This document shows, piece by piece, positions 51,640 to 62,832 of a stretch of DNA of 64,000 nucleotides. The position numbers and the translations under genes were made by a program. Below the pieces are notes generated by a model that was given only the letters and a program-made list of their open reading frames with translations, ran no database searches and was not told the origin of the DNA. Source of the DNA: Nocardioides sp. BP30 (lineage in GTDB: Bacteria; Actinomycetota; Actinomycetes; Propionibacteriales; Nocardioidaceae). Location: assembly GCF_029873215.1 (NCBI RefSeq), contig NZ_CP123620.1:744001-808000 (forward strand). The letters run 5' to 3'. How positions within the stretch are numbered: position 1 is the stretch's first letter; each line of letters starts with the position of its first letter.

Positions 51640-52623
51640 ATGACCGACTTCGAGCGTCCCAGGATCCGCCCCCGTCGCCTCCGCGCGACCCCGGCCCTGC
51701 GGCGGCTCGTCGCGGAGACCTCGGTCGAGGCGCGGCAGCTGATCCTGCCCGCCTTCGTCCGCGAGGGCATCGCCGAGCCGGTACCGATCAGCTCGATGCC
51801 GGGCGTCGTCCAGCACAGCCGCGACAGTCTCAAGCGCGCCGCAGCCCAGGCCGCCGAGCTCGGTATCGGCGGGATCATGCTCTTCGGCGTGCCCGAGCAC
51901 AAGGACGCCACCGGCACCGGTGCCTGCGATCCCGCGGGGATCCTCAACCTCGCCATCGCCGACTGCGTCGCCGAGGTCGGCGACGCGCTGCCGGTGATGG
52001 CGGATCTGTGCCTCGACGAGTTCACCGACCACGGTCACTGCGGGGTCCTCGACGATCGCGGCCGGATCGACAACGACGCCACCCTGGAGGTGTACGCCGA
52101 GATGGCGCGCGCCCAGGCGGCCGCCGGCGCCCGGGTGGTCGGACCGTCGGGGATGATGGACGGCCAGGTCGGCGTGATCCGCGATGCCCTGGACGGGGCG
52201 TCACACGAGGACGTCGTGATCATGGCCTACTCGGCGAAGTACTCCTCGGCCTTCTACGGCCCGTTCCGCGAGGCCGTCGACTCCTCGCTGGTCGGCGACC
52301 GGCGGACCTACCAGCAAGACCCGGCCAACGCGCTGGAGGGCGTGCGCGAGGCGCTGCTCGACGTCGAGCAGGGGGCCGACATCGTGATGGTGAAGCCGGG
52401 CCTGCCCTACCTCGACGTGCTGCGCGCGGTGCGCGAGGCGGTCGACGTTCCGGTGGCGGCCTACAACATCTCCGGCGAGTACGCGATGGTCGAGGCCGCC
52501 GCGGAGCGTGGCTGGATCGACCGGGACGCGGCCATCCTGGAGTCGCTGATCGCGTTCCGCCGCGCCGGCGCGGACATGATCCTGACCTACTGGGCAGCGG
52601 AGGCGGCCGCGCGGCTGCTCTGA
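51640..52623 (+). CDS. hemB: Delta-aminolevulinic acid dehydratase (porphobilinogen synthase)
   Basis: Condenses two 5-aminolevulinates to porphobilinogen. The 327-residue protein has the Schiff-base lysines in [16 protein letters not shown] and [10 protein letters not shown]. The metal loop is [14 protein letters not shown]: it keeps two of the three zinc-site cysteines, with Asp at the third, an intermediate type seen in actinobacteria. ATG 51640 is preferred over GTG 51634 because GAGGAG lies about seven bases upstream. It is separated from hemD by 111 bases, so it may have its own promoter (TACCTT at 51607). Two 28-bp palindromes follow its stop. Confidence 0.96.
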
Positions 52624-52624
52624 G

Positions 52625-52677
52625 CGGTCTTGACCCCTGGGGGTCAGAACCGTTTTGACCCCTGGGGGTCAGAACCG
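52625..52677. repeat. Two tandem 28-bp palindromes (copies A and B)
   Basis: Copy A 52625-52652 and copy B 52650-52677 overlap by three bases and share orientation. Each has the core TGACCCC-TG-GGGGTCA (cores start at 52631 and 52656) with outer arms of the type CGGTTT...GAACCG. They begin two bases after the hemB stop and precede the convergent transglycosylase gene. The 34-bp middle part found in the full elements at 60185 and 61301 is absent. They may act as terminators. Confidence 0.85.
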
Positions 52678-52747
52678 TCGCGCAACGGCGCCGAGAACAC
52701 CTCGACCCCGGTCGCTGGGCGGCCGGGGTCGAGAGGTGGTGGGGGCG

Positions 52748-54004
52748 CTACTTACCGCCGAGCACGGTGTCCAGCAGGCCACCGAGCAGGTTGCCCAGGC
52801 CGGCGATGATGCCGGTGACAGCCTTCTGGGCCTCCGGCAGCGTCTTGCCGGTGAGCTGGTTGACGCAGGCGGTCAGGGCCTTCGGCACGGAGGTGGCCGG
52901 GTCGGCGATGCCGTCCTTGACCAGCGCCTGGGTGCAGACCTGCGTCAACTGCGTGGCCGAGGCGAGAGCGTCCTGGACCGGCTTGGTCACCGCTGTCACC
53001 TGCGGCACCGGCACCGACGGCTTGCTGGTCGGCTTGGGGGAGGTCGACGGATCGCTCTTGGGCGTGGCGCTCGCCGTCGCCGTTGGCGCCGGTGTGCTGG
53101 TGGCGGTGCTCGTCGGGTGGGACCGGGTGCCGGTCGCCTTGTGGTGCTTCTTCGTGGCCGAGGAGGTGCCGAGGTAGGTGGAGGGCGTCAGGTACGCCGC
53201 CGGAACGGTGTAGTTCGGCACCGAGGAGTAGTCACCTGCCGTGTACGCCGAGGCGACGCCGAGGACCGTGTCGACGTACGACTGGCTGTGGTTGTAGCGG
53301 AAGACGGCCGTCCGCTGACCGGCCGTCGTGCCGAGGTCCTCCTCGCCGGAGCACAGGTACACCGCGGCGGCGAGCGCGGCGTCGTTGATGTCCTGCGGGT
53401 CGCGCTTGCCGTCGCCGTCGGCGTCCACGCCCACCACCGACCAGGTCGAGGGGATGAACTGCATCGGGCCGACCGCCCGGTCGTAGCTGGTGTCGCCGTC
53501 GAACTGGCCGCCGTCGGTGTCGGCGATCGCCGTCGTGCCACCGGCGCCGTCGAGCACGGGGCCGAAGATCCCCGGGGTGGCGATGCCCTGGGCGTTGAGG
53601 GTGTTGCCACCGGAGCGGCCGTGGTTGGACTCGACCCGGCCGATCGCGGCGACCAGCTGCCAGCTCAGGTTGCAGGTCGGGTCGGCCTTGTCGATGACGG
53701 TGGCGGCGCGCTGGTAGGCGGCGAGGGCAGCGGCGGGGATGCCCGAGCTGTCGGCGGTGGAGACGATCTGGGCGCCTCGGCCGGCGGAGAGATCGGCGCC
53801 GGTGGTGGGATCGCTCACCGTCGCCGGTGCGTCGATCGCCTTGGTCGGCACGACGGTCCCGTCCGGAAGCGTCGACGGCCTCGTGCCGGTCGCCTCCGCG
53901 GATCCGGCGCCGAGGCCGGTCAGGCTGATGGTCCATGCGGCCGACAGCGCGGCCAACGGCACGAGTGCGGCGGCCTTCTGGGCCTTGCCGAAACGAGCGG
54001 TCAT
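52748..54004 (-). CDS. Secreted lytic transglycosylase
   Basis: A 418-residue exported protein. A signal peptide is clear (basic start, hydrophobic [20 protein letters not shown] cleavage near 38). The SLT-type catalytic domain (about 105-270) has [14 protein letters not shown] with the catalytic Glu, [24 protein letters not shown] and a [15 protein letters not shown] segment. The C-terminal 140 residues are a Thr/Ser/Pro linker and a small helical tail with two cysteines. It cleaves peptidoglycan outside the membrane. ATG 54004 has GGGGAG seven bases upstream. The upstream region carries two GTAAC boxes 15 bases apart. Confidence 0.88.
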
Positions 54005-54185
54005 CCTTCTTCTCCCCTGGTCCATCGCACAGCATCGTGCGACTGCGTGCTCCCTCACGTGACCTGACAACGAGGTTACCCGCGAGGAAGTTACGCTCGT
54101 CACGTTTCCCAGCAACGCCCCGGCTCAACCATCGCGCCGCCGCCGTTCGCTGCCTGAATGCCGCCGGGGCCGGTTGGGATCCTCT

Positions 54186-54191
54186 TAGGGT
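54186..54191 (+). promoter_or_regulatory. -10 element for hemL (TAGGGT)
   Basis: TAGGGT predicts a start near 54198. GTG 54190 lies in the hexamer and cannot be the start; GTG 54211 is the next in-frame candidate, about 13 bases into the transcript and without a ribosome site. Confidence 0.45.
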
Positions 54192-54210
54192 GCTGAGCGA
54201 CAATGACGCG

Positions 54211-55545
54211 GTGCCCTATGATCCGCCCGGCTCCGTGCCCGCTTCGGAGGCTCTCTTCGCGCGTGCGAAGGCCGTGACGCCCGGCGGGGTCAACTCGCCG
54301 GTGCGCGCCTTCAACGCCGTCGGCGGCACCCCCCGCTTCATCCGCTCGGCCGAGGGCGCGTGGCTCACCGACGTCGACGGCCGCTCCTACGTCGATCTCA
54401 TCTGCAGCTGGGGGCCGATGCTGCTCGGGCACGCCCACCCCGAGGTCCTCGCCGCGGTGAGCGCAGCCGTCGCCCGCGGCACCTCCTACGGCACCCCGAC
54501 CGAACCCGAGGTCGAGCTGGCCGAGATGCTGGTCGACCGCGCGCCGGTGGAGGAGGTCCGGTTCGTCTCCTCGGGCACCGAGGCCACCATGTCGGCCATC
54601 CGCCTGGCCCGCGGCTTCACCGGCCGCGACGTGGTGATCAAGTTCGCCGGGTGCTACCACGGCCACGTCGACGCGCTGCTCGCCAGCGCCGGCAGCGGCC
54701 TGGCGACCTTCGCCGTACCGGGGACGCCGGGCGTGCCCGCGAGCAGCACCGAACTGACGGTGGTGCTGCCCTACAACGACCGCGCGGCGGTGACCGAGGC
54801 GTTCGCCGAGTACGGCGGCCGGATCGCCTGTCTGATCACCGAGGCGAGCCCGGGCAACATGGGCGTCGTCCCGCCGCTGCCGGGCTTCAACGCCTTCCTG
54901 TCGCAGATCTGCGCCGCGCACGGCGCGCTGTTCATCAGCGACGAGGTGATGACCGGCTTCCGCGCCTCGCGGGAGGGCCACTGGGGCCTGGACGGGAAGG
55001 TGGAGGGCTGGACGCCCGACCTGGTCACCTTCGGCAAGGTCATGGGTGGCGGCTTCCCGGCGGCTGCCTTCGGCGGTCGGGCCGAGATCATGCGGCGGCT
55101 CAGCCCGGAGGGGCCCGTCTACCAGGCGGGCACGCTCGCCGGGAACCCGGTGGCCACCACCGCCGGCCTGGCCACGCTGCGACTGGCCACCGACGAGGTC
55201 TACGCCCACATCGCCGCCGCTGCCGAGACGGTCAAGGGAGCCGTCGCCGACGCCTTCGACGCCGCGGGCCTGCCCCACGTCGTGCAGAGCGCCGGCACGA
55301 TGTTCTCGGTCTTCCTGACCGGGGAGCCGGTGACCGACTTCGAGAGCGCCAAGCGCACCGACGAGCGGGCGTACGCAGCGCTGTTCCACAGCATGCTCGA
55401 GCAGGGCGTCTACCTGCCGCCGAGCGCGTACGAGGCGTGGTTCCTCTCCTCGGCGCACGACGAGCGGGCGATCCAGCAGATCATCGACGCGCTGCCGGCG
55501 GCCGCCCGGGCCGCTGTCGCGGCGTCCGAGGGGGAGAAGAAGTGA
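54211..55545 (+). CDS. hemL: Glutamate-1-semialdehyde 2,1-aminomutase
   Basis: PLP enzyme that converts the HemA product to 5-aminolevulinate. The 444-residue protein has [60 protein letters not shown] and the PLP lysine in [16 protein letters not shown]. Complete. Start GTG 54211 is chosen from the promoter position and family length. The stop overlaps the next gene. It begins the cytochrome c maturation operon, so heme supply and heme use are co-transcribed. Confidence 0.95.
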
Positions 55546-56213
55546 CCGAGACGATCGTCCACCTGCTGCGTCACGGCGAGGTGCACAACCCCGAGGGCGT
55601 CCTCTACGGCCGGCGCGACGGCTTCCACCTCTCCGACCGCGGCGCCAAGATGGCCGACCGGGTCGCCGAGGTCATCGGCGGGCGCGACATCACCCACATC
55701 GTCTCCAGTCCGCTGGAGCGCGCCCAGGAGACCGCCCGGCCGCTGGCGAAGGCCCGCGGCGTCGAGGTCACCCTCGACAGCCGGGTGATCGAGAGCGCGA
55801 ACTGGTTCGAGGGCAAGACCTTCGCCGTCGGGGACAACGCACTGCGGCACCCCTCGTCCTGGGTCAAGCTGTGGAACCCGTGGAAGCCGTCGTGGGGCGA
55901 GCCCTACAAGGAGATCGTCGCGCGGATGATGGCGGCCGTCCACGACGCCCGGGTGGCCGCGGTCGGTCACGAGGCAGTGGTGGTCTCCCACCAGCTGCCG
56001 ATCTGGACCACCCGCCTGGCCGCCGAGAAGCGCAGCTTCCTGCACGATCCGCGCAAGCGGCAGTGCACCCTGTGCTCCCTGACCTCGTTCCACTTCGTCG
56101 ATGACCGGCTGGACCGCATCTCCTACAGCGAGCCGGCCGGCGACATGATCCCGGAGAAGGACCGACGAGCGCCGTTCTCGGCCGGTGATGCTCCGGAGGA
56201 GCTGCGGCCCTGA
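55542..56213 (+). CDS. Histidine phosphatase family protein
   Basis: A 223-residue branched-mutase-fold protein. [13 protein letters not shown] holds the catalytic [14 protein letters not shown] the second Arg, and [10 protein letters not shown] the second His. The usual acid Glu may lie in [10 protein letters not shown]. The substrate is unknown; it is annotated as a phosphoglycerate mutase-like protein in mycobacteria at this position. GTG 55542 overlaps the hemL stop and has a GGGGAGAAG ribosome site. Conserved place between hemL and the thioredoxin suggests a link to cytochrome c assembly, untested. Confidence 0.88.
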
Positions 56214-56215
56214 TC

Positions 56216-56824
56216 ATGTCCCGTCTCGTGCGCCGCGCGCCTCGCGTCCTCGCCCTCGCCGTCCTGGCCGTCCTCGTCCCGCTCCTGGCGGCATGCGGCA
56301 TGTCCGGCACCAGCACCGGTGGCTACCTGGTCGGCGACGGCCAGGTGCAGGCGGTGCACACGGCCGACCGGGGCAAGCCGGTCGACCTCTCCGGTACGAC
56401 GCTGGACGGCAAGCCGCTCGACTTCGCCACCGACCGCGGCAAGGTGGTGGTGGTGAACACCTGGTGGTCCGGTTGCGGGCCGTGCAGCACCGAGATGCCG
56501 ATGCTGCAACAGGCATCCCAGGATCTCGGCACGAGCGCGACGTTCGTCGGCATCAACATCCGGGACAGCTCGGCCGCCAACGGGCTGGCCTTCCAGCGTG
56601 CCCACGGCGTGACCTACCCCTCGCTCTACTCGCCCGACGGCAAGGCGGTGCTGGCCTTCTCCTCGAAGTTCTCCCCGCGCACCATCCCCTCGACGGCAGT
56701 GCTGGACACCGAGGGCCGGGTGGCGGCCATCATCCGCGGCCAGATCCCCTCCAAGCTCACCCTGACCGAGACCGTGCAGTGCGTGAGCGATCCGGGTGGT
56801 CAGGGGTGCAAGGGCTTTGAGTAG
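56216..56824 (+). CDS. TlpA/ResA-like thiol-disulfide lipoprotein
   Basis: A 202-residue exported thioredoxin. The signal peptide ends in a lipobox, LLAACGM, so Cys27 should be lipidated. The fold has VVVVNTWWSGCGPCSTEMPML with the CGPC redox pair and IPSTAVLDTEG with the cis-proline. Two extra cysteines near the C-terminus (QCVSD, GCKGF) may form a structural disulfide. It keeps apocytochrome c cysteines reduced outside the membrane, receiving electrons from CcdA encoded next. Confidence 0.93.
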   Translation: MSRLVRRAPRVLALAVLAVLVPLLAACGMSGTSTGGYLVGDGQVQAVHTADRGKPVDLSGTTLDGKPLDFATDRGKVVVVNTWWSGCGPCSTEMPMLQQASQDLGTSATFVGINIRDSSAANGLAFQRAHGVTYPSLYSPDGKAVLAFSSKFSPRTIPSTAVLDTEGRVAAIIRGQIPSKLTLTETVQCVSDPGGQGCKGFE

Positions 56825-57575
56825 CTGGTTCTCCCAGACCGCCGGCTCCGGATCCCTGGTGCTGGCGATCCCGGTCGCGATCCTGGCCGGGCTGGCCTCG
56901 TTCCTCTCGCCGTGCGTCCTGCCGATGCTGCCCGGCTACCTCTCCTACGCCACCGGCCTGTCCGGGTCCGAGCTCGCCGAGGGCGACGTACGCCGCAGCC
57001 GGATGCTGCTGGGCTCGGTGCTGTTCGTGCTCGGCTTCTCCATCATCTTCGTCGCGCTGGGTGTGGCCGCCGGCAGCATCGGGTTCTGGTACGCCGAGCA
57101 CCGGGTCCTGGTCAACCGCGTCCTGGGGGTCTTCACCATCGCGATGGGGCTCGCCTTCCTCGGCGTGGTGCCGTGGTTGCAGCGCGACCTGCGGGTGCAC
57201 AAGGTGCCGGCCGTCGGCCTCCTCGCGGCGCCGCTCCTCGGCTTCCTCTTCGGCCTGGGCTGGGCGCCCTGCGTGGGTCCGACGCTCGGTGTCATCTACG
57301 GGCTCGCCGCCACGTCCGGTACGGCGACGCGCGGCGGCGTGCTGCTGGCGTTCTACTCGCTGGGCCTCGGGGTTCCGTTCGTCGCCTTCGCGGTGCTGTG
57401 GCGGCGCGCGCTCGGGACGCTCAAGGTCATCCGCCGCCACCAGCGCTGGGTCACCCGGATCGGCGGCGTGATGCTCATCGTGGTCGGGCTCGCGCTGCTG
57501 ACCGGCTGGTGGCAGTACTCGCTGGACTGGCTGCAGATCCATCTCGTCGACCACTGGGCCGGGGTGACCCTGTGA
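56817..57575 (+). CDS. ccdA: Cytochrome c biogenesis protein CcdA
   Basis: A 252-residue membrane protein with six hydrophobic segments that moves electrons from cytoplasmic thioredoxin to the TlpA-like protein. Its two membrane cysteines are in LSPCVLPMLPGYLSY and GWAPCVGPTLG. The preferred start TTG 56817 gives SSWFSQTAG as in relatives and overlaps the preceding stop by eight bases; GTG 56796 is the alternative. The stop overlaps resB. It belongs to System II cytochrome c maturation. Confidence 0.93.
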   Translation: MSSWFSQTAGSGSLVLAIPVAILAGLASFLSPCVLPMLPGYLSYATGLSGSELAEGDVRRSRMLLGSVLFVLGFSIIFVALGVAAGSIGFWYAEHRVLVNRVLGVFTIAMGLAFLGVVPWLQRDLRVHKVPAVGLLAAPLLGFLFGLGWAPCVGPTLGVIYGLAATSGTATRGGVLLAFYSLGLGVPFVAFAVLWRRALGTLKVIRRHQRWVTRIGGVMLIVVGLALLTGWWQYSLDWLQIHLVDHWAGVTL

Positions 57576-59179
57576 GTGACCTGAAGGAGCCGACCGAGAG
57601 CAGGGCGGCCAGGGCCGAGCGCGAGCGGCAGCACCCCTCGCCGATCCGCGAGCTGACCGCCCGCGAGCTGGCCCGCTGGTCCTGGCGCCAGCTGACCTCG
57701 ATGCGCACCGCGCTCATCCTGCTGCTGCTGCTGGCGCTGGCGGCCGTCCCGGGCTCGCTGATCCCGCAGGAGAACCTGGACTCGGTCAAGACCACCAACT
57801 GGCAGGCCGCGCACACCTCGCTGACGCCGATCTACCGCCGGCTCGGCCTCTTCGACGTCTACGGCACGCCGTGGTTCGCCGCGATCTACATCCTGCTGAT
57901 GCTCTCGCTGATCGGCTGCATCGTGCCGCGGTTGGGCGTCTACTGGCGTGGGCTGCGCGCCCAGCCTCCGGCCGCGCCGCGCAACCTCGGCCGGATGCCG
58001 GACTCAGCGTCGTACACCACCAGCGAGAGCGCCGAGGAGGTGACCGCCCGTGCCCGGCAGGTGCTGCGCCGCAAGCGCTACCGGATCCGGCGCGAGCCGT
58101 CGGCCGACGGCGCCGTCTCGGCCGAGCGCGGCTACCTGCGCGAGGCGGGCAACCTGCTCTTCCACGTGTCGGTGATCGTGGTGCTCGTCGGGTTCGCGGT
58201 CGGGTCGCTGTTCGGGTACAAGGGCGGCGTCAACGTCCTGGTGGGCGACCAGTACGGCTTCTCCAACGAGCTGACCCAGTACGACGACTTCGCGCCGGGC
58301 AGCCTGTTCCGCCCCTCGATGCTGAACTACTTCGACCTGCACATCCACGACTTCGACGTCAGCTGGCTCAAGTCGGGGCCGCGCCAGGGGATGGCGAAGG
58401 GCTTCAAGTCCGACATCGAGTACCAGACCTCGGCCGACGGTGCGACCAAGAGCTACCGGCTCGAGGTCAACCACCCGCTCGACATCGGCGGCACCGAGGT
58501 CTTCCTCATCGGGCACGGCTACGCACCGGTCATCACCATCCGCGACGCGAAGGGCAACATCACCTACTCGGGGCCGCAGATCTTCCTGCCGGAGAACCAG
58601 AGCTTCCTCTCCTTCGGCGCGGTCAAGCCCCCGTCGGGCAACGTCGCGCTGGAGGGCCTGTTCTACCCTTCGGCGCTCTCCCTCTCCGACGGGTCGGTCA
58701 CCAACATCACCGGCGACATCGGCGACAAGTCGGCGGCGGTGCTCTCCTTCCAGGTCTTCACCGGTGACGTCGCCGCCGCGAACGCCGGCCAGTCGGTCTA
58801 CACGCTCAACACCACCGGGCTCAAGCAGGTGACGGCCGAGGGCGGCAAGGCCTTCAACCTGCACATCGGCCAGACGGCGAAGCTGCCCGACGGGCTGGGA
58901 TCGGTGACGTTCGACGACGTCACCCGGTGGAACAAGCTCCAGATCAGTCAGACCCCGTTCAAGCACGTCGCCCTGGGCGGTGTCACGCTGGCCCTGATCG
59001 GCCTGCTGGGGTCGCTGTTCATCCGCCCCCGTCGGGTCTGGGTTCGCGCCCGGGAGACCGAGGGTGGCACTCTGGTCGAGGTGGCGGTCCTGGACCGCTC
59101 GGGCAACGACGAGGTCGGTGTCGTGGTCTCCGGTCTGGTGGCACAGCTGCAGGGCCGCGTTGAGGAGGAACAATCGTGA
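57572..59179 (+). CDS. resB: Cytochrome c biogenesis protein ResB
   Basis: A 535-residue membrane protein, half of the System II heme-delivery synthetase. Three N-terminal membrane segments (TALILLLLLALAAVPGSLI, FAAIYILLMLSLIGCIV, LLFHVSVIVVLVGFAVGSLFGY) precede a large extracellular domain (about 220-470). A last helix (VALGGVTLALIGLLGSLFI) follows. GTG 57572 overlaps the ccdA stop and its own stop overlaps ccsB. It works with CcsB to attach heme to c-type cytochromes outside the membrane. Confidence 0.94.
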   Translation: MSDLKEPTESRAARAERERQHPSPIRELTARELARWSWRQLTSMRTALILLLLLALAAVPGSLIPQENLDSVKTTNWQAAHTSLTPIYRRLGLFDVYGTPWFAAIYILLMLSLIGCIVPRLGVYWRGLRAQPPAAPRNLGRMPDSASYTTSESAEEVTARARQVLRRKRYRIRREPSADGAVSAERGYLREAGNLLFHVSVIVVLVGFAVGSLFGYKGGVNVLVGDQYGFSNELTQYDDFAPGSLFRPSMLNYFDLHIHDFDVSWLKSGPRQGMAKGFKSDIEYQTSADGATKSYRLEVNHPLDIGGTEVFLIGHGYAPVITIRDAKGNITYSGPQIFLPENQSFLSFGAVKPPSGNVALEGLFYPSALSLSDGSVTNITGDIGDKSAAVLSFQVFTGDVAAANAGQSVYTLNTTGLKQVTAEGGKAFNLHIGQTAKLPDGLGSVTFDDVTRWNKLQISQTPFKHVALGGVTLALIGLLGSLFIRPRRVWVRARETEGGTLVEVAVLDRSGNDEVGVVVSGLVAQLQGRVEEEQS

Positions 59180-60255
59180 GTACGCACGCGTGGGAGCTGC
59201 TGAGCAACCGCGCCGTCGCCACGGCGGCGGTCGTCTACTTCCTGGCGTTGCTGAGCCACCTGGTCGAGTGGTCGGCGCTGGTCGGCCGGCGGCGTACGGC
59301 CGTCGAGGCGCCCGCGCTGGTCGGGGCGGGTGTCGGCGACGGCGGGTCGGAAGGCGGTCCCTCGGGTGGTGTCGCGGACGCAGGTACGCCGATGTCCGGC
59401 GCCGACCGCTCCGCGGACGAGGACCGCGAGGACCGGGTCGCCATGTTCGGCCGGCTGGGCTATCTGCTGACCTGCATCGCCGCAGCCGCGCACCTGACCG
59501 CCGTGATCAGTCGTGGCATGGCCGCACACCGGGTGCCGTGGGGCAACATGTACGAGTTCACCGTGGCCGGCACGTGCATCGTCGCCGTCGCCTACGTGCT
59601 GCTCTACGCCCGGCTCAAGCTGGCCTGGATGGCGCCGGTCGTGGTCGCCTTCGTGCTGGTGATCCTCATGGTCGGCGTGCTGGTGCTCTACACCCCGGTC
59701 GAGCCGCTGACCGAGGCGCTCAACTCCTACTGGCTGGTCATCCACGTCATCTCGGCCGCGCTGGCCACCGGCGCCTTCACCCTCGGCGGCATCGCATCGG
59801 GGATCTACCTGCTCAAGCGCCGCCGTCCCGAAGCCGAGAGCGGCTGGATGTCGCGGGTGCCCTCGCTGGCCTCGCTGGACCGGGTGGCCTACCGCATCCA
59901 CGCCTTCGGGTTCGTGCTGTGGACCTTCGCCGTCCTGATCACCGGTCCGATCTGGGCCCACCAGGCCTGGGGCTCCTACTGGAACTGGGACCCCAAGGAG
60001 GTCTGGGCCTTCATCACCTGGGTCGTCTACGCCGGCTACCTGCACGCTCGCGCGACCGCGGGCTGGCGGGGTCGCAACGCCGCGATCCTCGCGCTGGTCG
60101 GCGTGGCGACGCTGTGGTTCAACTTCATCGGGATCAACTACTTCTCGACGACCTCGGAGCACTCGTATGCGTCGGCTCCGGCGACGGTTTTGACCCCTGG
60201 GGGTCAGAACCACACGCTGGGGGGCAATGCTTCGGGGCACAACGTGCGGCTCTGA
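59176..60255 (+). CDS. ccsB: Cytochrome c synthetase subunit CcsB with repeat-derived tail
   Basis: A 359-residue membrane protein that exports and presents heme. The heme-binding WWD motif WGSYWNWDPKEVW is intact, with external His residues in the surrounding segments. About eight membrane segments are visible. Residues 36-90 form a Gly/Asp-rich cytoplasmic insert. The family normally ends just after INYFSTTSEHSYA; here about 25 further residues (from TVLTPGG to NVRL) are encoded by the 90-bp palindromic element at 60185-60274, and the TGA stop is part of that element's last palindrome. Function is probably unaffected, since the core is complete. Confidence 0.94.
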   Translation: MSTHAWELLSNRAVATAAVVYFLALLSHLVEWSALVGRRRTAVEAPALVGAGVGDGGSEGGPSGGVADAGTPMSGADRSADEDREDRVAMFGRLGYLLTCIAAAAHLTAVISRGMAAHRVPWGNMYEFTVAGTCIVAVAYVLLYARLKLAWMAPVVVAFVLVILMVGVLVLYTPVEPLTEALNSYWLVIHVISAALATGAFTLGGIASGIYLLKRRRPEAESGWMSRVPSLASLDRVAYRIHAFGFVLWTFAVLITGPIWAHQAWGSYWNWDPKEVWAFITWVVYAGYLHARATAGWRGRNAAILALVGVATLWFNFIGINYFSTTSEHSYASAPATVLTPGGQNHTLGGNASGHNVRL

Positions 60256-60274
60256 CCCCCAGGGGTCAGTTCCG
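60185..60274. repeat. 90-bp three-hairpin palindromic element, copy 1 (C-D)
   Basis: Two 28-bp palindromes (C 60185-60212, D 60247-60274; cores TGACCCC-TG-GGGGTCA and TGACCCC-CA-GGGGTCA) around a 34-bp middle. It is the reverse complement of the element at 61301-61390; the middles match at 30 of 34 positions and total length is identical. It overlaps the ccsB 3' end and ends three bases before the stop of the convergent DUF559 gene. Confidence 0.88.
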
Positions 60275-60276
60275 TC

Positions 60277-61230
60277 TCAGGCCGCAAGCCCGGCCAGTAC
60301 GGCGCGGATCCGCGCGGCCGTGCGCTCCGCCGTGGCCAGGTCCGCCCAGGTGAGCCGGAGGCAACGCCACCCGGTGGCGGCTCGGATCCGGTCCTCCCGC
60401 CGCTTCTCCCGCACCACGGCGTCGGCCGCTGACTCGCCCTCGCGCAGATGCTTGACGTACTTCTCCCGCCCGTCGATCTCCACGAACACACCGAACTGTC
60501 GCCAGGCGAAGTCGACCCGACCGAGGAACCGGCCGTTGTGGTCGCGGACCTCCACCTGAGGTTCGGGCAGCGGCACCCCGGTGCGCCAGCACAGGTGCAC
60601 GAAGCGCGCTTCCGCCGGCGACTCGATCCGCCGGTCGGCGAGACGCAGGATGCGCCGCGTGCTGAGGGTGTCGGGCCACAGGGTGATGGATTGGTCGAGT
60701 CTCGCAAGCAACGCGTCGGCCGTCGTACGCCCCGAATGCAGCAGGAAGCAGATCGCCACCAGGGCGGCCTCGGGCTGGTCGAGCGTGGTGAGCTCGAGGG
60801 CAGTCCTGGTGGCTGACATGACGCGAAGTCCGTGCACGTCCATGACATCCTCGGGCAGGACGATGCCCCGGTGCTGCTGGACGCCTGACTCGTGCCGCCC
60901 GGCTTTGTGATCCTCGCGGGTCAGATGGGCTTCGGCGAGGTCGAAACCCCACACCGGCGCCTCGTGGAAGGGCAGCGCGGAGACGTGCGAGATGACGCTC
61001 CGCGTGCGAGCGCTGCCGAGGGCGGCTCTCGCGAGGAGCGCGTGCTTGGCTGCCTGGTCCAGGCTGAGCCACACGTGACCGTCGACGTACGCGCCATGGC
61101 GGATGCGGTGGAGGACGCCTGCCTTGACCGCCATCCGGAGGGTGCTGTCGGTGTACCCGTCGGCCAGGAGATCGCGGCGACGCCGGATCGTGGTGAAGCA
61201 AGGGTGCTCAGGGGAGAGATTCATGGTCAT
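60277..61230 (-). CDS. DUF559 endonuclease-like protein with AbiEi-type N-terminal domain
   Basis: A 317-residue protein. The N-terminal 100 residues look like the winged-helix domain of AbiEi-type antitoxins (RRRDLLADGYTDSTLRMAVKAGVLHRIRHGAYV). The C-terminal part is a DUF559/Vsr-like PD-(D/E)XK nuclease fold: GRVDFAWRQFGVFVEIDGREKY supplies Asp, Glu and Lys, and RCLRLTWADL follows. It would be cytoplasmic. The gene lies alone between two inverted 90-bp elements (60185-60274 and 61301-61390), so it may travel with them. ATG 61230; ATG 61224 is also possible. The activity is inferred from family only. Confidence 0.85.
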   Translation of the reverse strand: MTMNLSPEHPCFTTIRRRRDLLADGYTDSTLRMAVKAGVLHRIRHGAYVDGHVWLSLDQAAKHALLARAALGSARTRSVISHVSALPFHEAPVWGFDLAEAHLTREDHKAGRHESGVQQHRGIVLPEDVMDVHGLRVMSATRTALELTTLDQPEAALVAICFLLHSGRTTADALLARLDQSITLWPDTLSTRRILRLADRRIESPAEARFVHLCWRTGVPLPEPQVEVRDHNGRFLGRVDFAWRQFGVFVEIDGREKYVKHLREGESAADAVVREKRREDRIRAATGWRCLRLTWADLATAERTAARIRAVLAGLAA

Positions 61231-61300
61231 GCCGGCGGCATGCCCCGCAGCTCGTGGTCTGGAACCAGGAGAGTTTGCCCTGTGGATAAGTCCGCGTGAT

Positions 61301-61390
61301 CGGTTGTGACCCCCAGGGGTCAGAACCGCACGTTGTGCCCCGAAGCTTTGCCCGACAACGTGCGGTTTTGACCCTCAGGGGTCAAAACCG
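61301..61390. repeat. 90-bp three-hairpin palindromic element, copy 2 (E-F)
   Basis: Palindromes E 61301-61328 (core TGACCCC-CA-GGGGTCA) and F 61363-61390 (one core mismatch, outer arms CGGTTTT/AAAACCG perfect) around a 34-bp middle whose ends, CACGTTGT and ACAACGTG, pair over eight bases. The RNA or single strand could fold as three hairpins. It lies between the DUF559 gene start and the 3' end of the small minus-strand gene at 61412. Confidence 0.88.
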
Positions 61391-61411
61391 ACCCCCGAAG
61401 GCCCGCGAGGA

Positions 61412-61603
61412 TCAGTCGTCCCCGTGCAGCCGCCGTCGGTCCAGCTCCTGCAGGAACTCCTCGTCGTCGTCCGGTGCGAAGGGCCGGCTCTCGCGCTGCA
61501 GCCGCCGGGCGGCCGCGCGCAGCCGACCGGTCGGGCTCGCGTACCTCCATACGAGGTAGGACGGGCCCGCGGCTAGCAGGACTACCAGCCAAAACCAGAG
61601 CAC
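61412..61603 (-). CDS. Small single-pass membrane protein
   Basis: A 63-residue protein: N-terminal membrane helix (LWFWLVVLLAAGPSYLVW), an Arg-rich stretch (GRLRAAARRLQRES), then an acidic tail (DDDEEFLQELDRRR). The likely topology has the charged part in the cytoplasm. GTG 61603 lies six bases after a TAAACT -10, which supports it as a real gene. Similar small proteins occur next to the DUF4229 and menA genes in related genomes as I recall. Function unknown. Confidence 0.75.
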   Translation of the reverse strand: MLWFWLVVLLAAGPSYLVWRYASPTGRLRAAARRLQRESRPFAPDDDEEFLQELDRRRLHGDD

Positions 61604-61609
61604 GGTTCG

Positions 61610-61615
61610 AGTTTA
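61610..61615 (-). promoter_or_regulatory. Leaderless-type -10 (TAAACT)
   Basis: Minus-strand TAAACT ends six bases before GTG 61603. Confidence 0.5.
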
Positions 61616-61636
61616 GGTCGCCGGTGCGCTCCTCCG

Positions 61637-61642
61637 TACCCT
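61637..61642 (+). promoter_or_regulatory. Leaderless-type -10 (TACCCT)
   Basis: TACCCT ends six bases before GTG 61649; together with the -10 at 61610 it makes a divergent leaderless pair in a 45-base gap. It favours GTG 61649 over GTG 61646. Confidence 0.45.
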
Positions 61643-61648
61643 TGAGTG

Positions 61649-61915
61649 GTGAAGGAGTTCGTCGTCTACACCGTCTTGCGTCTCGTCGTGCTGGTGGCCA
61701 CGTTCGCCATCGTCGCCGGCATCTGGATCCTCGCCGCGGGCAACCTCGACTGGTTCTGGTGCCTCGTGATCGCGTTCCTGGCCAGCGGGGTGGCGTCGTA
61801 CACCGTTCTCAACCGCCAGCGGATGGCCTTCGCGGCCCGCGTCGACGCGCGTGCCCACAAGGCAGCGGCGGCGTTCGAGGCGATGAAGGCCAAGGAGGAC
61901 GCGAAGGGCGAGTGA
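61649..61915 (+). CDS. DUF4229 domain membrane protein
   Basis: An 88-residue protein with two membrane helices (VLRLVVLVATFAIVAGIWILA, about 10-30, and WFWCLVIAFLASGVASYTVL, about 35-54) and a charged C-terminal helix ending in KAKEDAKGE. This matches DUF4229, a small actinobacterial family often encoded near menaquinone genes. The stop faces the menA stop across a hairpin. Function unknown. Confidence 0.85.
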   Translation: MKEFVVYTVLRLVVLVATFAIVAGIWILAAGNLDWFWCLVIAFLASGVASYTVLNRQRMAFAARVDARAHKAAAAFEAMKAKEDAKGE

Positions 61916-61931
61916 GCCGCCGCCCCGCACG

Positions 61932-61949
61932 TCCCGGGCAGGCCCGGGA
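61932..61949. terminator. Hairpin between DUF4229 gene and menA
   Basis: TCCCGGG-CAGG-CCCGGGA, seven-base arms, in the 44-base gap between convergent stops. No T-tract. Confidence 0.5.
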
Positions 61950-61959
61950 GGGCTCCCGC

Positions 61960-62832
61960 TCAGGCCAGGATCAGCGGTACGGCGACGAGCAGCGCCCAGA
62001 CCAGCTCGGCGCGACCCGTCTGCTGCAGCGCCGGGATGAGCGCCGGCCCCACCGCCCCGCTGCGCACGATGCGCACGCCCGGCAGCGCGACGGCCAGGAA
62101 GCCGAGCCCGATCAGCGCCCACCAGGTCGTCGCAGCGGCGACGGCCACCGCGGCGGCGGCCGCGACAGCGACCAGCGCGACGTAGAGGACGCGGGTGCGG
62201 GCATCGCCCAGGCGCACCGCGAGGGTCAGCTTGCGGGCGATCCGGTCGGTGGGGATGTCGCGCAGGTTGTTGGCGACCAGGAGCGCGCACGCCAGCCCGC
62301 CCACGCCGATGGCCGCCCAGAGCGCTGCCCACTCCCAGGTCCGGCTCTGCACGTAGACAGTGCCGATCACCGCTACCAGGCCGAAGAAGACGAAGACCAT
62401 CACCTCGCCGAGACCCGCGTAGCCGTAGGGCCGCTTGCCGCCGGTGTAGTACCACGCGGCCACCACGCACAGCACGCCGACGAGGAGCAGCCACCAGGCG
62501 GTGGCGGCCGCGAGGCCCAGGCCGGCGAGACCGGCGACGCCGAAGCAGGCGAAGGCGGCGAGCTTGACCGCCCGGGGCGAGGCCGCGCCCGAGCCGACCA
62601 GCCGCAGCGGTCCGACCCGCTCGTCGTCGGTGCCGCGGATGCCGTCGGAGTAGTCGTTGGCGTAGTTGACCCCGATCTGCAGCGCCAGGCTCACCACCAG
62701 CGCGAGCAGGGCGCGCCACCAGGAGAACGCGTCGACGTACGCCGCCACGCCGGTGCCGGCGAGCACCGGGCTGATCGCCGCGGGCAGGGTGCGGGGTCGG
62801 GCTCCTTCGAGCCACTGCGAAGGAGTCGCCAC
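61960..62832 (-). CDS. menA: 1,4-dihydroxy-2-naphthoate polyprenyltransferase
   Basis: Attaches the prenyl chain in menaquinone synthesis, in the membrane. The 290-residue protein has the first Asp-rich motif NYANDYSDGIRGTDDERVGP and the second, NNLRDIPTDRIARKLTLAVRLG, both needed for Mg-diphosphate binding, and about eight membrane helices. GTG 62832 lies eight bases after TAGAGT. The upstream MFS gene ends 11 bases before, on the same strand, and its stop codon is inside the menA -10. Confidence 0.94.
   Translation of the reverse strand: MATPSQWLEGARPRTLPAAISPVLAGTGVAAYVDAFSWWRALLALVVSLALQIGVNYANDYSDGIRGTDDERVGPLRLVGSGAASPRAVKLAAFACFGVAGLAGLGLAAATAWWLLLVGVLCVVAAWYYTGGKRPYGYAGLGEVMVFVFFGLVAVIGTVYVQSRTWEWAALWAAIGVGGLACALLVANNLRDIPTDRIARKLTLAVRLGDARTRVLYVALVAVAAAAAVAVAAATTWWALIGLGFLAVALPGVRIVRSGAVGPALIPALQQTGRAELVWALLVAVPLILA

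Follow-up and report, generated by a model that had tools for sequence, protein, structure and literature searches.

Short palindromes, located mostly at the 3' ends of genes, are dispersed through the genome of Nocardioides sp. BP30, and two inverted copies of the repeat enclose a gene whose product joins an AbiEi-like N-terminal part to a DUF559/Vsr-like C-terminal motif. The repeats were recognized in a 64-kb piece of this genome, referred to below as the window, and the search covered the whole 4.28-Mb single contig. We think it likely that the palindromes are the non-autonomous repeats of a system resembling the repetitive extragenic palindromes (REPs) and their associated tyrosine transposases (RAYTs), in which a protein of AbiEi-PD-(D/E)XK type replaces the Y1 transposase; the product of the linked gene is the natural candidate for mobilizing them. 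The recurrence of the gene with matching repeats in other actinomycetes points to a kind of small mobile DNA that may have been overlooked. We advance more tentatively, as quite possible, the wider proposal that AbiEi-PD-(D/E)XK-type proteins spread cognate palindromes to gene 3' ends widely among Actinomycetes and so define a class of prokaryotic mobile DNA not described before.

Structure and dispersal of the palindromes

The family of the window, F1, is built from a 28-bp palindrome (P) and a 34-bp middle (M). The original prediction had reported six copies of the core TGACCCC-nn-GGGGTCA in less than 9 kb, and all six are there (52631, 52656, 60191, 60253, 61307, and 61369), five of them exact and one with a single mismatch. 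They belong to three unstranded features: a tandem P pair without the middle (52625 to 52652 and 52650 to 52677), directly 3' of the hemB stop codon, and two P-M-P elements, at 60185 to 60274 (P, 60185 to 60212; M, 60213 to 60246; P, 60247 to 60274) and, in opposite orientation, at 61301 to 61390 (P, 61301 to 61328; M, 61329 to 61362; P, 61363 to 61390). As had been claimed, both P-M-P elements are exactly 90 bp long, and their middles, aligned with one of them inverted, are identical at 30 of 34 positions; without the inversion they match at 22 of 34. The description of the element as three hairpins did not hold. Its 90-bp consensus is almost a single palindrome, and the favored fold of both window elements, on either strand, is one long hairpin. 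Base-pair counts under either fold (one hairpin or three) did not exceed those of shuffled sequences and thus gave no sign of selection on RNA structure.

A whole-genome search, which the original prediction had proposed, showed that the family extends well beyond the window. Cores with at most one mismatch numbered 46, against 0 for a reversed-pattern control, and hence are not chance occurrences. They group into 23 clusters, of which the one at 3663827 was left out because it is a lone core without arms. The remaining 22 F1 loci comprise 19 with a complete 90-bp P-M-P, one single P, one tandem pair, and one pair spaced by 33 bp. One locus reads P-M-P-M-P, so that the 62-bp unit can be repeated; for the same reason, the alignment of full P-M-P elements (A1) has 20 rows from 19 loci.

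The same plan occurs elsewhere in the genus with other sequences. Among 58 genomes searched, those with a match at E ≤ 0.001 were BP30 and six others of the genus. The matching genomes keep the P-M-P arrangement, exactly 90 bp long in several loci, and their palindromes differ from that of the window and in part from one another: G029 has arms of its own type, G032, G024, and G010 have a common TTTCCCCGG arm, and G007 and G030 have a common GATCCCCGG arm. Differing palindromes on one P-M-P plan recall the behavior of REP/RAYT pairs.

The linked gene and its matching repeats

The linked gene (60277 to 61230, minus strand, 317 aa) is enclosed by the window's pair of 90-bp elements, with 60185 to 60274 as its downstream and 61301 to 61390 as its upstream bracket, and the three form a complete unit of 1,206 bp (60185 to 61390). 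The original prediction had raised the question of a linked RAYT or other transposase. A RAYT/IS200 enzyme was looked for and rejected in this role: PF01797 (RAYT/IS200 Y1 transposase) matched none of 118 Nocardioides genomes, that of BP30 included, and matched 5 of 14 control genomes. The part of the proposal that stood is the linkage itself, to a gene of another kind.

The window protein matched the PADLOC AbiEi model (3.5e-12) and, under the Pfam cutoff, AbiEi_4 (0.0019); it had no match in NCBIfam. Its conserved C-terminal motif, E..VDFAW..ExDG..K..EKxRE, is DUF559/Vsr-like. Among 23 family members, the PADLOC AbiEi model matched all 23, and Pfam at E ≤ 1 found AbiEi_4 in 20, with DUF559 in 2 and the MTES_1575 restriction endonuclease in 2; apart from marginal matches, these Pfam scans of the family returned nothing else and no transposase. 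A family profile compared with the PDB matched AbaSI alone, weakly (E = 0.11). Five residues (E207, D240, E251, D253, and R278) are invariant in 57 homologs. Homologs carry the NCBI name “type IV toxin-antitoxin system AbiEi family antitoxin domain-containing protein”; the scanned neighbors of the window gene (Cytochrom_C_asm and DUF4229) include no AbiEii toxin partner. With a dN/dS of 0.11 for the one strain pair compared, BP30 and its sister strain Nocardioides sp. Iso805N, the gene is under purifying selection and has been kept. It is also common: homologs at E ≤ 1e-30 occur in 98 of 118 Nocardioides genomes, and, in a profile search across an Actinomycetes sample, 60 of 72 genera (90 of 118 genomes) had family members at E ≤ 1e-15.

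Nearly all of the close homologs tested are bracketed by inverted repeats. In a search of six genomes, homologs at 44 to 51% identity were bracketed in G032, G007 (two genes), G024, and G029 (one of two), in each case by the kind of palindrome found elsewhere in the same genome, except for the second G007 gene, which has another repeat. We then scored brackets by local alignment of the upstream flank with the reverse-complemented downstream flank. Of 35 homolog loci taken, 34 were testable (one flank was too short; the genes of the window and of Iso805N are orthologs), and 33 had matching inverted flanks, with scores of 57 to 129, above 75 in 27 of them. Mismatched flank pairs averaged 29.8, with 95th and 99th percentiles of 53 and 75, and of 276 genes of at least 150 aa, taken from the window and 16 stretches, the window gene alone reached 57 (99th percentile, 38), which leaves none of the 275 others. 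The flank repeats are usually particular to each genome. BP30 itself has seven members at E ≤ 0.001 (profile A2; one is a partial match), six of which have matching flanks, every pair different. Among 15 distant homologs (26 to 36% identity), four of which are BP30 members also counted in the seven, 8 pass.

Two further families replicate the arrangement within BP30, so that F1 (22 loci), F2 (14 copies), and F3 (23 copies) each bracket a different member. F2 is a 70-bp palindrome bracketing the member at 151271 to 152146; its arm had 30 matches against 0 reversed-pattern controls, and both arms are present in 14 copies, the two brackets included. F3 is a 67-bp palindrome, with 44 arm matches against 1 control match and 23 copies, again including two brackets; the gene that it encloses (919558 to 920208) is a weak family member (E = 1.1e-8). 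Gene and repeat also go together in other species. For 23 of 27 dispersed copies in five other Nocardioides, the best match among 11 gene flanks offered came from the genome of the copy itself, and over 33 loci protein identity correlated with flank similarity (Mantel r = 0.40, p = 0.0005); the two have diverged together.

Outside the genus, where the loci tested were the 26 best scoring, 21 pass with an inverted or direct match of at least 57. Mismatched pairs were the sole control there (99th percentiles of 64 for inverted and 38 for direct matches), and tandem or coding repeats may account for a few of the direct matches. For G198, a genome from another taxonomic family of the class, with seven members of the protein family, we set a prediction beforehand, that the terminal 16 bp of one of its gene units would be dispersed in the genome. 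It was found at 34 places, against 0 controls. The gene-bearing unit measures 1,242 bp; of 12 other loci read, eight are gene-less inverted pairs of 168 to 210 bp with the same termini as the unit, and four have no partner end at two or fewer mismatches. The unit and its gene-less copies look like an insertion sequence (IS) and its miniature inverted-repeat transposable elements (MITEs).

As a separate observation, many gene flanks outside the genus (L217 to L242) have in common a terminal motif like TGATCACGTT or TTGACCACGT, which may represent an ancestral recognition site.

Gene ends, strain differences, and alternative explanations

Gene context, called with a simple and rough codon-usage gene finder, agrees with the original statement that most copies lie at gene 3' ends. 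Sixteen of the 22 F1 loci are convergent, against 60 of 316 background junctions (p = 6.6e-8); five are co-directional and one, the bracket at 61301 to 61390, is divergent. One of the co-directional loci (L021) overlaps a called open reading frame (ORF), a call that may be wrong. The families F3 (14 of 23 convergent; p = 1.1e-5) and F2 (6 of 14; p = 0.035) behave similarly. A predicted stop codon falls inside an F1 element or within 20 bp of it in 19 of 22 loci, the others being L017 (37 bp), L021, and the copy at 61301. Whichever side a reading frame enters from, it reaches a stop near the end of the element in F1 (TGA), F2 (TAA), and F3 (TAG) alike, and some neighboring genes use that stop. 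The TGA at element positions 7 to 9 is the neighboring gene's own stop in four F1 loci of BP30. In the window, the ccsB-like ORF at 59176 to 60255 (from the ORF list; it has a Cytochrom_C_asm match) runs through the first P and M and ends at the TGA in the core of the second P (60253 to 60255, plus strand). Placement of F1 elements inside host inverted repeats, striking in L017, L018, L021, and L029, was considered and rejected as a general feature (p = 0.016 to 0.10 in BP30 and 0.55 to 0.93 in Iso805N). Along the chromosome record, F1, F2, and F3 are apparently unevenly spread (Rayleigh p = 0.005, 0.03, and 0.04).

This enrichment at convergent ends, together with the strong hairpins, is what would be expected if the palindromes were bidirectional terminators or insulators that accessory genes such as this one possess in pairs and that ordinary recombination has spread with no role for the protein; in two cases, moreover, unrelated hairpins occupy orthologous sites that lack the element. 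We regard this explanation as unlikely. It does not account for the finding that 0 of 275 other genes are bracketed, nor for a repeat sequence that tracks the gene and co-diverges with its protein. The one intrinsic terminator (GC hairpin plus T-run) called in window positions 52000 to 62000 is not at an element. The strain comparison also argues against it: the complete F2 unit (151061 to 152448 in BP30) is absent from Iso805N, where the flanking aligned blocks lie 9 bases apart, and both dispersed F2 copies that could be placed at orthologous Iso805N sites are absent as well, an unrelated hairpin standing at one of the sites. Ten other dispersed F2 copies were tried and could not be placed on both sides. 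No F2 arm with two or fewer mismatches was found in 650 kb of Iso805N (partly overlapping stretches); about two would be expected from the density in BP30, so that this absence says little by itself.

The F1 family, for which the original prediction had called attention to strain-to-strain presence, is common to Iso805N yet polymorphic there. A scan of named genomes for a 26-bp P pattern, possibly excluding BP30 itself, returned 16 stretches, 15 of them from Iso805N and 1 from an actinobacterial metagenome-assembled genome (MAG). Most aligned stretches of Iso805N (G139) are 85 to 90% identical to BP30, and a model search found 21 full F1 elements in it. Many of the sites compared are occupied in both strains, including those of both 90-bp elements of the window, and a diverged P pair (L126) stands at the site of the window's tandem pair. 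Other sites differ in length (P-M-P versus P-M-P-M-P, a single P, or a P pair), and some are empty in one of the two strains. At one site where BP30 lacks the F1 element, it carries an unrelated hairpin instead. Genome-wide dispersal, this polymorphism, and the lack of any Rfam family at gathering score in window positions 52000 to 62000 (three sub-threshold matches were to two miRNA families and one snoRNA family) support the suggestion that F1 is a new family resembling REPs, bacterial interspersed mosaic elements (BIMEs), or MITEs.

Some smaller features of these sites were noted in passing. Intergenic slots that hold unrelated hairpins in the two strains (the L021 site with L112:3067, and L302 near 13500) give the impression that palindrome families replace one another at gene 3' ends. 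A strong ordinary hairpin (window 52700 to 52740, −33 kcal/mol) adjoins the tandem P pair, and a similar one occurs at that site in Iso805N. An array of GCAACC-type hexanucleotides (L023:3068-3110), shorter in Iso805N, lies directly beside one F1 element.

Vsr-like nucleases include homing enzymes, and the gene could be a homing-type parasite that inserts into pre-existing palindromes, which would then be its targets rather than its products and would be spread by another agent. One Iso805N locus invites this explanation: the family gene L166 (L142, G139:C1:641018-641758) occupies the site of a 90-bp F1 element of BP30 (L022). However, L166 does not pass the bracket test and is flanked by sequence other than the F1 palindrome. 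A homing gene would also have to track a different repeat for each member, and the joint absence of the F2 unit and its placeable copies from Iso805N counts against it; we consider this account quite improbable. Highly improbable, finally, is a dispersed regulon in which the protein serves as an AbiEi-type regulator and the palindromes as operators that lie at 3' ends by chance: an AbiEi-like part is present and a DNA-binding dimer would be expected to have palindromic sites, but the sites lie mostly at gene ends and not at promoters, the 67- to 90-bp elements, containing several palindromes, and the conserved nuclease-like motif go beyond an operator, and the gene-less copies in G198 carry the termini of the unit.

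A probable REP/RAYT-like system with a different enzyme

Under the REP/RAYT-like interpretation that we prefer, one “home” pair of copies brackets the gene, whose product would combine a DNA-binding, AbiEi-like part with a second part of PD-(D/E)XK type (DUF559/Vsr-like). This protein would probably bind the palindrome of its own family and cut or nick it there, and the cut or nick would let the repeat be copied to new sites, preferably the 3' ends of genes. The association of gene and repeat is established here; binding and cutting of DNA by the protein, and its part in the copying, are inferred. An element might be tolerated at such sites because it supplies a two-way stop codon and a strong hairpin; termination or insulation may be the reason for this tolerance, although the canonical T-run is missing at the window elements.

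Several observations weigh against this interpretation. The score cut of 57 was fixed after the scores were known, mismatched flank pairs reached 129, and the homolog loci tested were the best-scoring ones rather than a random sample. Bracket failures occurred among the close homologs (L161), the BP30 members (L211), the distant homologs (7 of 15), and the loci outside the genus (5 of 26: L224, L227, L230, L237, and L241). Four of the 27 dispersed copies had their best match in a flank from another genome (one in G029, one in G024, and two in G010, for which only one of three homologs was offered). The F3 unit, at 80% identity, and three dispersed F3 sites are common to both strains, as are many compared F1 sites, so that recent movement is shown only in part, and changes between P and P-M-P could stem from recombination alone. 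Among 34 F1 elements, no convincing target-site duplication was found (63 length/shift tests, best p = 0.008), and the window protein had no match (E = 1e-5) in plasmid or phage records. The C-terminal part is a putative PD-(D/E)XK-type nuclease on the strength of motifs and weak profile matches. Finally, the copies number in the tens (14 to 23), whereas REPs exceed 100 per genome (PMC2817692).

REP/RAYT systems are the model for short palindromes that populate bacterial genomes. The RAYT gene is flanked by two inverted palindromes, cognate palindromes are dispersed, and gene and palindrome co-diverge (Nunvar 2010, PMC2817692), and REP elements lie at gene 3' ends (PMC3733652). The present system shares these features, and the intergenic position between convergent or unidirectional genes, with REPs, REP doublets forming hairpins (REPINs), and BIMEs. 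It differs in its linked gene, which is AbiEi plus DUF559/Vsr-like and not a Y1/HUH transposase, in its occurrence in actinomycetes, and in the GTAG/CGTC tetranucleotide tag, which inspection by eye of 48 elements, with their ends and flanking sequence, did not reveal. We do not place it in the REP/RAYT family, since no Y1 transposase, the defining component, turned up. A survey reports that Actinobacteridae have TnpA of subclass 1.1 (IS200-type) only (PMC6006769). The common terminal inverted repeats of the gene unit and gene-less copies in G198, and the sharing of the whole bracket in F1 to F3, recall IS elements and MITEs; unlike those, F1 lacks a detected target-site duplication, no known transposase family is involved, and each F1 to F3 bracket is itself a complete closed palindrome. 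The protein resembles type IV AbiEi antitoxins in its N-terminal region and differs from them in its additional nuclease-like part and in lacking an AbiEii toxin among the scanned window neighbors. It resembles Vsr, DUF559, and MTES_1575 nucleases and AbaSI in its C-terminal motif and weak profile matches, and differs in the fusion to an AbiEi-like part and the tie to cognate dispersed palindromes. No description of the F1 element or of the gene-repeat link appeared among the literature examined, which does not prove its absence from print.

If a parallel system with an unrelated enzyme exists, it would account for the palindromic repeats of a large, GC-rich group and would point to a role for an abundant protein family now labeled as antitoxins, many “type IV toxin-antitoxin system AbiEi family antitoxin” proteins then being mobilizing enzymes. 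The different repeat accompanying each protein would provide natural replicates for testing how such an enzyme chooses its DNA.

The single MAG stretch returned by the P scan (L086) was rejected as an F1 member, since it is in fact a different palindrome family of about 40 bp. That family, GGATCGGTTGTGACCC..GGGTCACAACCGATCC, is dispersed in the actinobacterial MAG (G140), at L086 and several of L089 to L107.

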